This document shows positions 5,319 to 48,898 of a stretch of 64,000 bases of DNA, in pieces; position 1 is the first letter of the stretch, and each line of letters begins with the position of its first letter. The stretch lies in NCBI RefSeq assembly GCF_000473165.1, contig NZ_KI421504.1, positions 2,278,009 through 2,342,008 on the forward strand. The letters are read 5' to 3'. The notes under the pieces were generated by a model. That model searched no databases. It was not told the origin of the DNA and saw nothing but the letters and a program-made list of their open reading frames with translations. The stretch is from Leisingera aquimarina DSM 24565 (GTDB taxonomy: Bacteria > Pseudomonadota > Alphaproteobacteria > Rhodobacterales > Rhodobacteraceae). A program made the translations under genes and the position numbers.

Positions 5319-8350
<3,032 letters not shown>

Positions 8351-8401
8351 GCGTGGCTTTAGGGGTAGGGGAGACGCAGGGTTCGCGTCAACCGAAAACT
8401 T

Positions 8402-45636: not shown

Positions 45637-45734
45637 GCCCCTTCCTTCGAGGTTTACGCGACACGGCCATGCAAGTGCTTGGCTGCAGCCGTCTGTCTTC
45701 AGGGGGGGCGGTTTTGCTGTGCGGAAAACAAGAA

Positions 45735-45770
45735 ACGGCGGCACCCAGGGAGGAGGAGGGGTGCCGCCGT
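45735..45770 (-). ncRNA. CcsR/cuckoo-type sRNA stem-loop 4
   Basis: A perfect 12-base stem (45735-45746 with 45759-45770) presents a loop that reads CTCCTCCTCCCT on the minus strand. TTTCTTGTTTTCC follows, so this last stem-loop probably also terminates the transcript. Conserved CCUCCUCCC loops are the hallmark of the CcsR (cuckoo) sRNAs of Rhodobacter. Confidence 0.82.
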
Positions 45771-45779
45771 TCTGTCAAA

Positions 45780-45811
45780 CACCGGAATTCAGGGAGGAGG
45801 AGATCCCGGTG
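45780..45811 (-). ncRNA. CcsR/cuckoo-type sRNA stem-loop 3
   Basis: On the minus strand CACCGGGAT pairs with ATTCCGGTG (nine pairs including one G:U), closing a CTCCTCCTCCCTGA loop. Confidence 0.78.
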
Positions 45812-45842
45812 ATTCAAGCCCGGCTGTAAACCGGTGTAAGGT

Positions 45843-45876
45843 GCGGCGGCATCAGGGAGGAGGAGGATGCCACCGC
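45843..45876 (-). ncRNA. CcsR/cuckoo-type sRNA stem-loop 2
   Basis: On the minus strand GCGGTGGCATC pairs with GATGCCGCCGC (11 pairs including one G:U) around the 12-base loop CTCCTCCTCCCT at 45865-45854. Confidence 0.8.
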
Positions 45877-45882
45877 GTAGGA

Positions 45883-45915
45883 CAGGCCCTTCAAGGGAGG
45901 AGGAGAAAAGGCCTG
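45883..45915 (-). ncRNA. CcsR/cuckoo-type sRNA stem-loop 1
   Basis: On the minus strand CAGGCCTTTT pairs with GAAGGGCCTG (ten pairs including two G:U) around CTCCTCCTCCCTT. It starts eight bases after the DUF1127 stop codon, consistent with processing from the same transcript. Confidence 0.78.
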
Positions 45916-45922
45916 ATCTCTA

Positions 45923-46132
45923 TTAGTTGTTCTCGTAAGCGGCCTGATAGGCGACGCGCTGAATTTCGGAGCGGTTCAGACCCAGATCTGCCAGATCGCG
46001 GGCCGACAATGCCGACAGTTCGCTGACGGTCTTGCGGTACAGGCGATAGCGAACGAATTTCACCATCAGCGCATCCAGGAAGCCAACCGGGGATGCAATG
46101 CTCACCGCGGAGATCTGTTGTGCTGCTGCCAT
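45923..46132 (-). CDS. ccaF1: DUF1127 small protein, CcaF1-like
   Basis: A 69-residue DUF1127 protein: an N-terminal region (MAAAQQISAVSIASPVGFLDAL) then the arginine-rich domain VRYRLYRKTVSELSALSARDLADLGLNRSEIQRVAYQAAYE. In Rhodobacter sphaeroides the same arrangement, CcaF1 followed by four CcsR sRNAs, is known: the protein binds RNA and the sRNAs are processed from the shared stress-induced transcript. The start at 46132 follows AAGGAAC. The longer frame upstream runs into the promoter. Confidence 0.88.
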   Translation of the reverse strand: MAAAQQISAVSIASPVGFLDALMVKFVRYRLYRKTVSELSALSARDLADLGLNRSEIQRVAYQAAYENN

Positions 46133-46200
46133 TGTTCTGTTCCTTCGTCTGACCGTATCGTCGTATCCGTCTGGCACCATCCCGGCGCCGCTTGAGGGGT

Positions 46201-46228
46201 AATTTAGGGATCTTCCGAAAAGTCGCAA
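46201..46228 (-). promoter_or_regulatory. predicted promoter of the ccaF1-CcsR transcript
   Basis: On the minus strand TTGCGA (complement of 46223-46228), 16-base spacer, TAAATT (complement of 46201-46206). The TTG and short spacer are compatible with RpoH-type promoters that drive this locus in Rhodobacter, but a housekeeping promoter cannot be ruled out. It lies ~70 bases before the start codon. Confidence 0.5.
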
Positions 46229-46495: not shown

Positions 46496-47560
46496 ATGGC
46501 GGTCACTCAGGATCAGGTTCGCGAAATACTGGAGCGGCTGGCCTTGCCGGACGGCGGCACGCTGGTGTCGCGTGACATGCTGCGCGCCCTGCGTATCGAT
46601 GGCAGCAAGGTGAGCTTTGTGATCGAGGCGCCCAGCCCCGAGATCGCCAAACTGATGGAGCCTTTGCGCAAAGCCGCCGAGGCCGCGGTGCTGTCTCTGG
46701 ACGGCGTCGAAACTGTCTCTGCCGCGCTCACCGCCCATGCCGCTCAGAAGCCCGCGCCCAGCCTCAAGGTCGGCGGCCATCCGAAGCCGCAGGCCGGGCC
46801 GTTGAAACCCGCAGGCGTCAAACGCATCCTGGCGATTGCCTCCGGCAAGGGCGGGGTGGGGAAATCCACCGTCTCCTCGAACCTCGCCGTGGCGCTGGCC
46901 AGGCAGGGGCGCAAGGTCGGGTTGCTGGACGCGGATATCTACGGCCCCTCCCAGCCCCGCATGATGGGGGCCACCGGCCGCCCCGCCAGTCCTGACGGCA
47001 AGATCATCGAACCGCTGCACGCCCATGGCGTCACTCTTATGTCGATCGGCTTTATGCTGGAAGAGGGTAAGGCTGTGGTCTGGCGCGGCCCAATGTTGAT
47101 GGGGGCGCTGCAGCAGATGCTGGGGCAGGTGAACTGGGGCGAGCTGGACGTGCTGATTGTCGACCTGCCGCCCGGCACCGGCGATGTGCAGCTGACGCTT
47201 TGCACCAAGGCGGAACTGACCGGCGCCATCGTGGTCTCCACCCCGCAGGACGTGGCGCTGCTGGATGCGCGCAAGGCGATGGACATGTTCAAGACGCTGA
47301 AAACCCCGGTGCTGGGGTTGATCGAAAACATGTCCTTCTTCACCTGCCCAGATTGCGGCGGTGAGCATCACATCTTTGGCCGTGGCGGTGTCGCGGCAGA
47401 GGCCGAGACGCTGGGCCTGCCGCTGTTGGGCGCGCTGCCGATTGATCTGGAAACCCGGTTGGCCGGCGACAGCGGCACGCCCATCGCGGTGGGCGAGGGG
47501 CCAATGGCGCAGGCCTATGCCCGGATTGCCGAAGGTCTGATCGGCGGCGGCATGGCCTAA
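46496..47560 (+). CDS. mrp: Mrp/ApbC family iron-sulfur cluster carrier ATPase
   Basis: A 354-residue P-loop ATPase that carries and delivers Fe-S clusters to apoproteins. An N-terminal MIP18-like (DUF59) domain spans ~1-80. The deviant Walker A IASGKGGVGKST spans residues 115-125, and VDLPPGTGDVQLTL gives Walker B. The dimer-interface CxxC that holds the cluster is FFTCPDCGG. It would serve Fe-S enzymes such as ThiC and BioB encoded in this window. A terminator follows at 47602. Confidence 0.94.
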   Translation: MAVTQDQVREILERLALPDGGTLVSRDMLRALRIDGSKVSFVIEAPSPEIAKLMEPLRKAAEAAVLSLDGVETVSAALTAHAAQKPAPSLKVGGHPKPQAGPLKPAGVKRILAIASGKGGVGKSTVSSNLAVALARQGRKVGLLDADIYGPSQPRMMGATGRPASPDGKIIEPLHAHGVTLMSIGFMLEEGKAVVWRGPMLMGALQQMLGQVNWGELDVLIVDLPPGTGDVQLTLCTKAELTGAIVVSTPQDVALLDARKAMDMFKTLKTPVLGLIENMSFFTCPDCGGEHHIFGRGGVAAEAETLGLPLLGALPIDLETRLAGDSGTPIAVGEGPMAQAYARIAEGLIGGGMA

Positions 47561-47601
47561 CTCCGCAGGGCTCAGCTCTCTCTATATTTAGTGTCCCGGG
47601 T

Positions 47602-47630
47602 GGCCCGCCTCATTGGCGGGCCATTTGCTG
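47602..47630 (+). terminator. mrp terminator
   Basis: GGCCCGCC (47602-47609) pairs with GGCGGGCC (47615-47622), followed by ATTTGCTG. The U run is weak but the stem is strong. Confidence 0.7.
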
Positions 47631-47645
47631 TTTGCTCCCTTTGAT

Positions 47646-47794
47646 TGGGCACAGATGGGATTTCCCGCCCGGTTTGGGAACCTGCGAGACCGCGGCCCCC
47701 GCATGGGGCGGCATGGGACCGGCGCGATTGAATGGGATAGCTGGGAATTCACGGCACTGGCGGGAATTCACGGGCACCATGGGAAATTATGGCC
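47646..47794. promoter_or_regulatory. phased array of YGGGN boxes, candidate large MraZ operator
   Basis: TGGGN or CGGGN pentamers start at 47646, 47656, 47675, 47704, 47714, 47733, 47742, 47761, 47771 and 47780, with TGGCC at 47790. The gaps are 10, 19, 29, 10, 19, 9, 19, 10, 9 and 10 bases, i.e. multiples of about one helical turn. The block GGGAATTCACGG is repeated at 47743 and 47762. In E. coli MraZ binds TGGGN repeats spaced by five bases upstream of mraZ, so this looks like an expanded version. No credible ORF in this stretch. Confidence 0.55.
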
Positions 47795-47936
47795 CGGTTT
47801 GCCCCGCTTTCCGCTTGAAGGCCCGAATCACTCGGTGTTGAACCGCTGATACCGGGGTTTCCCGGCGGTTCTGTTGCGGGGGAATGCGAACGTAAGGGGA
47901 ATATCCAAAGCTGCTGCGCGCTTTCTTGTGGAATCG

Positions 47937-47983
47937 CGGGAAACTATGGGAAAAAAATTGCAGGCGCAACTCGTCTCTATATT
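47937..47983 (+). promoter_or_regulatory. two MraZ-type boxes next to a -10-like element
   Basis: CGGGA (47937-47941), five bases, TGGGA (47947-47951) have exactly the MraZ box spacing. TATATT at 47978-47983 is a good -10; TTGCAG at 47958 is too close (14 bases) to be an ideal -35. CTCTATATTTRGTG also occurs near 47578, just before the mrp terminator. This is my best candidate for the dcw promoter, leaving a leader of about 400 bases. Confidence 0.4.
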
Positions 47984-48304
47984 TGGTGTTGATGGTGGAG
48001 TTGCGCACAAGAACTTCGATTTTAGGCCTAAATCTTGCCGCGAATCTCTTTTGAAACTCAGTTGTTCTGTCAAGCCTTCAGCGCTTTGCTACAGAAAACA
48101 GTTGCAGGGCCATCAATTCCCATAGTATCCCTAATGTATCGAATGAGACGAGGGACGGGGCACCAAACGACCCCAAGCCAAACTAAAAGAGCAGGTTTCA
48201 TACAGGCCTTCGCTTTCATCGAACAAAGAGATCCGGCGCGCGAGCGAGCAGACATCCCCCCAGGTGGCGCGCGCAGTCGGACATCCCGCAAAGCGGGCCA
48301 AGGC
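47984..48304. other. long untranslated region before mraZ
   Basis: No credible gene on either strand. GATTTTAGGCCTAAATC at 48018-48034 is a near-palindrome. From 48234 the sequence becomes structured: GGCGCGC...GCGCGC arms around 48235 and 48266, and a CCCGC-AAA-GCGGG hairpin at 48284-48296. It leads directly into the terminator at 48305. Confidence 0.5.
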
Positions 48305-48346
48305 GGCGGGTTGATCAGTGGCAGCAGATCAACCCGCCCCTTTTCA
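48305..48346 (+). terminator. strong rho-independent terminator or attenuator before mraZ
   Basis: GGCGGGTTGATC (48305-48316) pairs perfectly over 12 bases with GATCAACCCGCC (48327-48338), followed by CCTTTTCATT. It lies 49 bases before the mraZ start codon, so it either ends an upstream non-coding RNA or attenuates the dcw operon. Confidence 0.85.
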
Positions 48347-48394
48347 TTCTGGGGAACGGATTAACGCGAGGGACGCGCGAAAAGGATCGGTAAG

Positions 48395-48898
48395 TTGGGC
48401 CGCAGGTTCAGAGGCGAAAGCCACCACAAGGTGGACAGCAAGGGGCGGGTGTCAATCCCGGCCTCTTTCCGCCGTGTGCTGGAGGCCGCCGATCCGAACT
48501 GGAAATCCGGCGACAGCCCCGAACTGGTGATTGTCTACGGCGACCACCGCCGCCCGTTCCTGGAATGCTATACTATGGAAGCCATCGACGAGGTGGACGC
48601 CAAGATCGCGGCCCTGCCGCGCGGCTCCAAACCGCGCAAGATCCTGGAGCGCATGTTCAACGGCCAATCCTTGCCGACCAATGTGGATGACACCGGCCGC
48701 CTTGTGCTGCCGGCCAAGCTGCGGCAGAAGATCGGCCTGGAGGGCGAAGCCTTCTTTATAGCCTCCGGCGACACCTTCCAGATCTGGAAGCCCGAGACTT
48801 ATGAGGAGGTTGAGATGGCCGAAGCCGAGAAACTGATGGAAGACCTGCCGGAGGATTTCGATCCCCTGGAATTCCTAGATGGCGCCGGAGGCGTTTGA
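48395..48898 (+). CDS. mraZ: MraZ transcriptional regulator
   Basis: MraZ is the ring-forming AbrB/SpoVT-type regulator that represses the dcw cluster. The 167-residue protein has both repeats: GESHHKVDSKGRVSIPASFRRVL near the N-terminus and NVDDTGRLVLPAKLRQKIGL near residue 96, each with the DxKGR/DxxGR DNA-binding motif. The start is TTG at 48395, with AAGGAT about ten bases upstream; no ATG or GTG gives the family N-terminus. rsmH follows three bases after the stop. Confidence 0.94.
   Translation: MGRRFRGESHHKVDSKGRVSIPASFRRVLEAADPNWKSGDSPELVIVYGDHRRPFLECYTMEAIDEVDAKIAALPRGSKPRKILERMFNGQSLPTNVDDTGRLVLPAKLRQKIGLEGEAFFIASGDTFQIWKPETYEEVEMAEAEKLMEDLPEDFDPLEFLDGAGGV

Follow-up and report, generated by a model that had tools for sequence, protein, structure and literature searches.

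A long row of TGGG-like boxes in Leisingera aquimarina DSM 24565 raised a question: could an array that lies ~600 bp before mraZ be an operator for MraZ, and how would such an operator act at that distance? The division regulator MraZ is widely conserved, and Eraso et al., whose work PMC5089854 and PMC7761207 cite, are said to have described, in 2014, the E. coli MraZ operator in front of mraZ. To our knowledge, how MraZ rings meet DNA and why rings are needed is unclear. The original prediction, made from the letters of the DNA, held that the array could be a giant MraZ operator. We examined this proposal computationally in the window (the whole 64-kb stretch of DNA that was analysed), in the 5.34-Mb genome and in the mraZ regions of other bacteria.

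The entire array is contained in the 834-bp intergenic region between mrp and mraZ. Its upstream neighbour, an open reading frame at 46496..47560 (+ strand), is a putative mrp-type P-loop ATPase gene, so named from the character of the sequence and by the earlier reader; 3' of it, a consensus scan found a terminator-like hairpin with a 13-pair stem (47597..47627, +). The mraZ gene (48395..48898, +) has a TTG start and encodes 167 amino acids, and its product resembles the solved MraZ chains 1n0e, 9qlr, 9qlg and 9sx6 by sequence similarity; a MraZ structure predicted by AlphaFold with 20 close relatives was of poor quality (pLDDT 49.8) and was left unused. From a reading of the sequence and the analogy with UpsM of R. 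sphaeroides (PMC5089854), we infer a mraZ leader with an UpsM-like sRNA at 48138..48394 (+), whose start would fall at 48138. The leader's terminator hairpin (48305-48344, +) was identified by eye; the consensus scan, which allowed loops of 8 at most, missed it. A promoter scan of 47400-48500 found none, and Rfam returned no family between mrp and mraZ, either at E values of 1 or less or at the gathering score.

Several other features of the window were recorded. Four CTCCTCCC-loop hairpins, seen by eye, stand in tandem at 45730-45924 (− strand), after a small ORF (45923-46228). We take this row to resemble the CcsR sRNA cluster of Rhodobacter; the Rfam CcsR1 family scored 41.8 and 39.6 bits there, under its gathering score of 65.3. 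A TPP riboswitch at 8232-8360 (−) scored above the Rfam gathering score. The mraZ of the window is closer to that of Phaeobacter sp. HF9A (89.6%) than to that of L. aquaemixtae (85.9%), and the adjoining rsmH shows the reverse (77.3% vs. 87.3%, respectively), a contrast hinting at gene conversion restricted to mraZ.

The array, hereafter operator A, occupies 47646..47794 on the + strand and consists of seven YGGGA-N5-YGGGN-like pairs, i.e., 14 boxes in 149 bp (47646/47656, 47675/47685, 47704/47714, 47723/47733, 47742/47752, 47761/47771 and 47780/47790). All ten YGGG boxes listed in the original prediction, together with TGGCC at 47790, were confirmed at their positions. The regular lattice that it described also stood, with an amendment: the steps alternate between 10 and 9 bp, and the count rises to 14 when four boxes with one mismatch (47685, 47723, 47752 and 47790) are added to the ten exact ones. 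The window's copy is thus slightly decayed (4 of 14 boxes mismatched), with five of its seven pairs exact. Steps of 10 bp fall within pairs and steps of 9 bp between them, mostly across 4-bp linkers; that is, the 5-bp spacer of the E. coli operators is present inside each pair and absent between pairs. The five proximal pairs are spaced by 19 bp, and the two distal steps measure 29 bp. Given a mean step of ~9.5 bp against the 10.5 bp of B-DNA, successive 19-bp pairs rotate by ~70 degrees round the helix.

With its 10 exact boxes, operator A is the densest 149-bp YGGG stretch on either strand of the window, where the mean is 1.85 per 149 bp on the + strand and the maximum on the − strand is 7. 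When the 834 bp between mrp and mraZ were shuffled 5000 times with dinucleotides preserved, 13 shuffles matched its box density, one its count of 9/10-bp neighbours and none its 9/10-bp lattice chain. In the whole genome, two places match a four-box piece of this lattice, operator A being one of them. The three-box piece (steps of 9 then 10) was at chance level genome-wide, with 17 matches vs. 20 for the reversed pattern, and only the long array is therefore special. Exact YGGGAAWTCAYGG is found only twice in the genome, both times inside operator A. With one mismatch allowed, the genome held 62 matches to YGGGAAWTCAYGG vs. 7 for the reversed pattern; this excess could stem from composition or from additional MraZ sites, and no regulon was drawn from it because the reversed pattern differs in composition.

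Conservation of box phase with variable spacers among relatives was the test that the original prediction had set for itself, and it came out in its favour: across 20 aligned Leisingera, the phase of the boxes is conserved while the linkers vary. Aligned on the last pair, the pairs lie at −144, −115, −86, −67, −48, −29 and −10, counted from the terminal TGG box, and, from distal to proximal, are exact (YGGG then YGG) in 16, 14, 13, 18, 20, 20 and 20 of the 20. One of these genomes (L048) has an array that lacks exactly one 19-bp unit and whose other boxes stay in register. Spacings between boxes in the 20 sequences include 74 of 9 bp, 114 of 10 bp and 145 of 19 bp, vs. one of 11 bp and three of 12 bp (~13 expected of each). 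In the core block of 19 of the 20 rows, pairwise identity is 0.92–0.96 for the G's of the boxes, 0.72 for the leading Y, 0.78 for the fifth base, 0.49–0.78 for the spacers and 0.37–0.69 for the linkers. The distance from the end of the array to mraZ is 605–611 bp in 19 of 20 Leisingera, and that from the mrp stop to the array's end varies from 203 to 297 bp, also in 19 of 20. The longest chain of boxes numbers 7–14 in the 20 Leisingera vs. 1–6 in 108 other genera. The 10/9-bp alternation recurs in longer arrays elsewhere: a Phaeobacter MAG (L178) has ten boxes in uninterrupted alternation, and Roseobacter SK209-2-6 (L145) and Marinovum algicola (L198) also display it. A record titled Nocardioides marinus DP1N28-1 (L142) carries a Leisingera-type mraZ region; its title is apparently mislabelled.

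These alignments also bear on whether the array is a neutral minisatellite, a G-quadruplex or an RNA element. GGG tracts do recur, TRF reports a 19-bp repeat at 47742-47785, and a G-quadruplex has been reported at the mraZ promoter of S. aureus (available portion of PMC11796246). Yet boxes that are conserved while their linkers vary speak against this group of readings, as does the presence of the motif on the opposite strand in operator C (see below). The letters flanking GGG point to a protein site rather than a quadruplex, and the array folds as RNA no better than 200 shuffles of it (z −0.13). We consider this group of explanations extremely improbable.

Does operator A stand alone? Two partners, which the original prediction missed while being largely right in its operator idea, lie between it and mraZ. 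Operator B (47937..47951, +) reads CGGGA-AACTA-TGGGA, and operator C (48108..48132, −) reads AGGGA-TACTA-TGGGA-ATTGA-TGGCC and sits where the UpsM/mraZ promoter is expected, within the intergenic region that also holds A. We counted strict pairs in 108 of 110 loci, one per genus and including the window's genome (two loci were too short). Operator A was found on the + strand beyond −540 of mraZ in 81 of the 108 genera, B on the + strand at −520 to −400 in 82, and C on the − strand at −330 to −230 in 88. Strict pairs concentrate in these three clusters, with few matches elsewhere; a strict match to A was missing in 27 of the 108 and one to B in 26. A second set of 40 loci (33 representing one each of new genera, three further species of first-set genera and four further species of the new genera) held A in 33, B in 23 and C in 32. 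Since at least 14 of 80 named loci duplicate an unnamed one, pooled counts (n = 135 and 141) served only to view the pattern. Over 169 loci, the median position of C is about −291 relative to mraZ.

The original prediction called the array unusually far from mraZ, a judgement that did not survive: the leader is long in this family, and a distal + strand operator lies more than 540 bp before mraZ in those 81 genera. In R. sphaeroides, the UpsM leader is 268 nt, with no promoter nearer mraZ according to the available portion of PMC5089854. A leader of that length would make C overlap the promoter, and the long leader without a nearer promoter would explain why the operators lie so far from mraZ.

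MraZ as the ligand of these sites was assessed through their motif. A weight matrix was built from 91 mraZ-promoter (C) sites of genera other than Leisingera and scanned over both strands of the window (~128,000 positions). Its top five hits (47742+, 47780+, 48108−, 47937+ and 47761+, with B thus ranking fourth) all fall in the mrp-mraZ region; the sixth (60062−), outside it, scored barely below the fifth (14.8 vs. 14.9). The mraZ operator of E. coli MG1655 is of the same kind (+ strand, TGGGA-aattg-TGGGG-caaag-TGGGA, at −43, −33 and −23). In other alphaproteobacterial families, sampled by a class-level search (an order-level search returned only Rhodobacteraceae), a − strand pair with a 10-bp step precedes mraZ in 38 of 40 loci, and chains of 3–5 boxes precede it in 35 of 40. 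Pairs on the + strand between −250 and −800 of the MraZ match occur in only 4 of these 40; hence, A and B look like additions of the Rhodobacteraceae, with C being older. In the A sites of other genera, GGG tends to be preceded by Y and followed by A, and the spacer tends to be rich in A/T; these preferences are weaker than in C.

The motif that A and B share with the C sites of other genera and with the E. coli operator thus points to binding by MraZ. Recognition of A and B by another regulator with a TGGGA motif is conceivable, in that MraZ is assigned to them by motif; that same motif, however, precedes mraZ in the 38 other alphaproteobacterial loci and forms the E. coli operator, and we regard a different regulator as very unlikely. 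MraZ is, in our estimation, very probably the ligand, and its operator motif, as named in the original prediction, held up. The reading of the array as a giant MraZ operator is supported insofar as motif can support it, and A, B and C would be operators for one oligomeric protein, the identity and oligomeric state of MraZ being taken from the motif and the literature.

If one protein does bind all three operators, their spacing may say how. Distances were compared using one genome per genus and strict matches only (A-B in 68, B-C in 75 and A-C in 74 of 109 loci); the genera are not independent in these phase statistics. The A-B distances cluster at 114.0, 124.2, 135.2, 145.6, 156.3 and 167.7 bp and the B-C distances mainly at 151.0, 162.7 and 172.9 bp. 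By circular statistics, A-B gave R = 0.67 (n = 68), with a best period of 10.8 bp, and B-C gave R = 0.71 (n = 75); A-C was more weakly phased than these neighbours (R = 0.51, n = 74). For none of the three were values this high seen in 2000 jittered or in 2000 randomly paired sets, and R was 0.14–0.16 for the control distances, which were measured from each operator to the start of mraZ or to a conserved element of the leader. The period of B-C is loosely fixed (R 0.65–0.71 from 10.0 to 12.0 bp) because a single class near 173 bp holds 46 of the 75 distances. For the most distal A pair of loci with several pairs, R drops to ~0.5 (n = 25).

For A-B, 55 of 68 distances fell within 2 bp of the turn centres (~31 expected), which were fitted on the same data. 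With the centres preset, the strict matches of the second set (21 loci for A-B and 23 for B-C, of 40) placed 18 of 21 A-B distances (9.7 expected) and 21 of 23 B-C distances (10.8 expected) within 2 bp; its control distances to mraZ had R of 0.19, 0.26 and 0.30 at 10.8 bp, above those of the first set. The mrp stop was located in 73 of 129 loci, and loci with mrp found supplied a 54-taxon tree. On it, the A-B turn class changes at least 20 times (38 taxa scored) and the B-C class at least 10 times (36 taxa scored); the phasing pattern is therefore not one inherited length. Within Leisingera, A-B and B-C are nearly constant (157–159 and 173–174 bp in all 20; about 157 and 173 bp in the window) and so carry no information on phasing. 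Thus, across genera, A and B, and likewise B and C, stand a whole number of helical turns (~10.7 bp each) apart, and that a same-face constraint is real seems to us almost certain. The description “helically phased”, applied originally to the array, fits the whole-turn distances between operators and not the array itself, with its ~9.5-bp mean step against 10.5 bp.

Other sequences in the region share this phasing. The core consensus of the NrdR box is CWATATATWG. A similar palindrome, CTATATTTGG (47977..47986), which we call element E, lies between B and C, with a weak second copy at 48008-48017. Scanned as CWAYATRTWG, the core matched at 9 or 10 of 10 positions in 84 of 109 genera, vs. 0 of 109 and 9 of 108 in control stretches. 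Among 104 offsets for a second copy, +31 bp scored highest, with a mean of 5.05 of 10 against 4.73 for the runner-up and 3.69 overall, although the copy is weak; NrdR sites comprise two boxes ~31–32 bp apart (available portion of PMC2892513). Upstream of a ribonucleotide reductase gene in the same genome stands CTTTATATTG, followed 31 bp on by CAAGGTCTTG, the latter recognised by eye; at a threshold of 8, no tandem NrdR boxes were flagged before that gene, and a second nrd-type locus (L273) had no tandem. The motif and the one nrd promoter suggest that element E is an NrdR site, and its position before mraZ suggests a link of dNTP supply to the division cluster. A second CTCTATATTTAGTGT-like stretch, at 47579-47594 directly 3' of mrp, resembles element E; its conservation in Leisingera sequences was not obvious by eye.

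Sites of the CcrM type (GANTC) also crowd the region. The window has two between A and B (47825..47829 and 47931-47935). Their density per kb is 15.3 in A-B, 3.05 in B-C, 0.39 from C to mraZ and 0.82 in mrp coding DNA, which makes A-B (47795-47936 in the window) ~19-fold denser than mrp coding DNA. At least one site occurs between A and B in 64 of 68 genera, and 123 of 130 A-B sites are GAATC or GATTC. This crowding, nearly all of it GAATC or GATTC, makes a role for CcrM, GcrA or another GAATC-binding protein possible.

Could a mixed complex, then, with NrdR at E and possibly GcrA on methylated GANTC, be the main organiser, with MraZ as one partner? The phasing of element E (R 0.79 with B, n = 66; R 0.83 with C, n = 71) is tighter than that between A and B or between B and C; in the second set, with preset centres, 20 of 20 B-E distances (9.4 expected) and 24 of 26 E-C distances (12.2 expected) fell within 2 bp, and the density of GANTC in A-B points the same way. 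Yet no more than those 84 of the 109 genera have an E that scores at least 9, the second box is a weak match, its identity as an NrdR site comes from the motif and one nrd promoter, and it is less phased with A (R 0.52; with mraZ, 0.15). We judge a mixed complex of this kind improbable.

The whole-turn spacing of A-B and B-C, which distances to mraZ do not share, favours DNA looping by MraZ. In the mechanism that we propose, MraZ would bind proximal operator C, on the − strand at the promoter of UpsM-mraZ and the division (dcw) cluster, and, in most of the sampled genera, B and A upstream on the + strand. With the three on the same helix face, bound oligomeric MraZ rings could touch or share subunits and close loops over the promoter, mostly of ~110–180 bp (A-B) and 150–185 bp (B-C). 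Such looping would most likely make the repression of UpsM, of mraZ and of the division genes stronger, the sign of the regulation being presumed. In Leisingera, A would have grown by 19-bp units of two boxes each to ~14 boxes, a size at which it would hold several rings, or a large part of a single ring, and render the loop more stable or cooperative. Provided that MraZ is the ligand and that the same-face constraint holds, we think true DNA loops likely; the fuller proposal, in which A is an enlarged distal MraZ operator and phased A, B and C let MraZ rings close promoter loops, we hold to be somewhat favoured.

Whole-turn spacing might also arise without MraZ loops, from direct contacts among several proteins, such as NrdR at E and RNA polymerase. 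MraZ could likewise occupy A, B and C with no loops, either by wrapping the DNA continuously on its rings or by titration or a raised local concentration of MraZ, with the phase set by direct same-face contacts. The regular 149-bp lattice of Leisingera and the 10-9-10-9 arrays of L178, L145 and others would suit wrapping or a filament; a 9.5-bp mean step, unlike 10.5 bp per turn, would accommodate a left-handed wrap or filament round the DNA. A wrap of fixed size would nevertheless fix the length, and A-B differs by ~5–6 whole turns, and B-C mostly by 2–3, with phase kept. Binding without loops therefore strikes us as unlikely.

A more elaborate scheme can be drawn from the same elements. It envisages a dcw hub in which looped MraZ rings at A, B and C would be joined by NrdR bound to E and by sites in A-B that CcrM methylates; in addition, the 149-bp Leisingera array, with 16 lattice positions of which 14 are filled, would be wrapped by one MraZ octamer in a nucleosome-like, sequence-seeded manner, two boxes per subunit (8 × 19 bp). 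The division of 16 positions into eight subunits of two boxes is a guess, and the scheme as a whole is improbable.

If the looping mechanism applies, the helical register of three operators across many genera would mean that MraZ may fold DNA and thereby regulate from afar. The Leisingera array offers a natural substrate for structural work on the number of boxes per subunit and on the wrapping of DNA by a ring. Should E and GANTC act as their motifs suggest, the region would tie the onset of transcription of the division genes to both dNTP supply and methylation coupled to replication.

How does this arrangement compare with known systems? The looping repressors Lac, Gal and AraC act from operators placed whole turns apart, with an in vivo repeat near 11 bp. 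The whole-turn spacing is the same here; unlike those systems, this one would employ a ring-shaped AbrB-like protein on tandem boxes, and its phasing is known as an evolutionary pattern. The E. coli MraZ operator shares with A its TGGGN direct repeats and, within the pairs of A, its 10-bp step, yet it is a single three-box operator near mraZ, whereas three operators are found here, the distal one with ~14 boxes in alternating 10/9-bp steps. The MraZ operators of B. cenocepacia and Mollicutes are likewise short direct repeats at the mraZ promoter, and the Burkholderia authors suggest that an octameric ring recognises the operator; B. cenocepacia has four repeats and Mollicutes have AAAGTG[T/G] repeats, at one site each, with no distal arrays described in the available portions of these reports (PMC7761207, PMC8475190). 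R. sphaeroides UpsM also has a long mraZ leader, with a terminator before mraZ and no nearer promoter; the available main text of PMC5089854 contains no TGGG and does not name MraZ operators. Element E resembles the tandem NrdR boxes of PMC2892513 (available portion) in its palindrome and weak copy at +31 bp; it precedes a division gene cluster, whereas those boxes precede nrd operons. The literature surveyed, which covered the accessible parts of papers outside subscription and is thus weak evidence of absence, yielded no multi-operator or looping control by MraZ. The broader outcome is a conserved, helically registered layout of three operators, of MraZ type as judged by their motif, in the Rhodobacteraceae.
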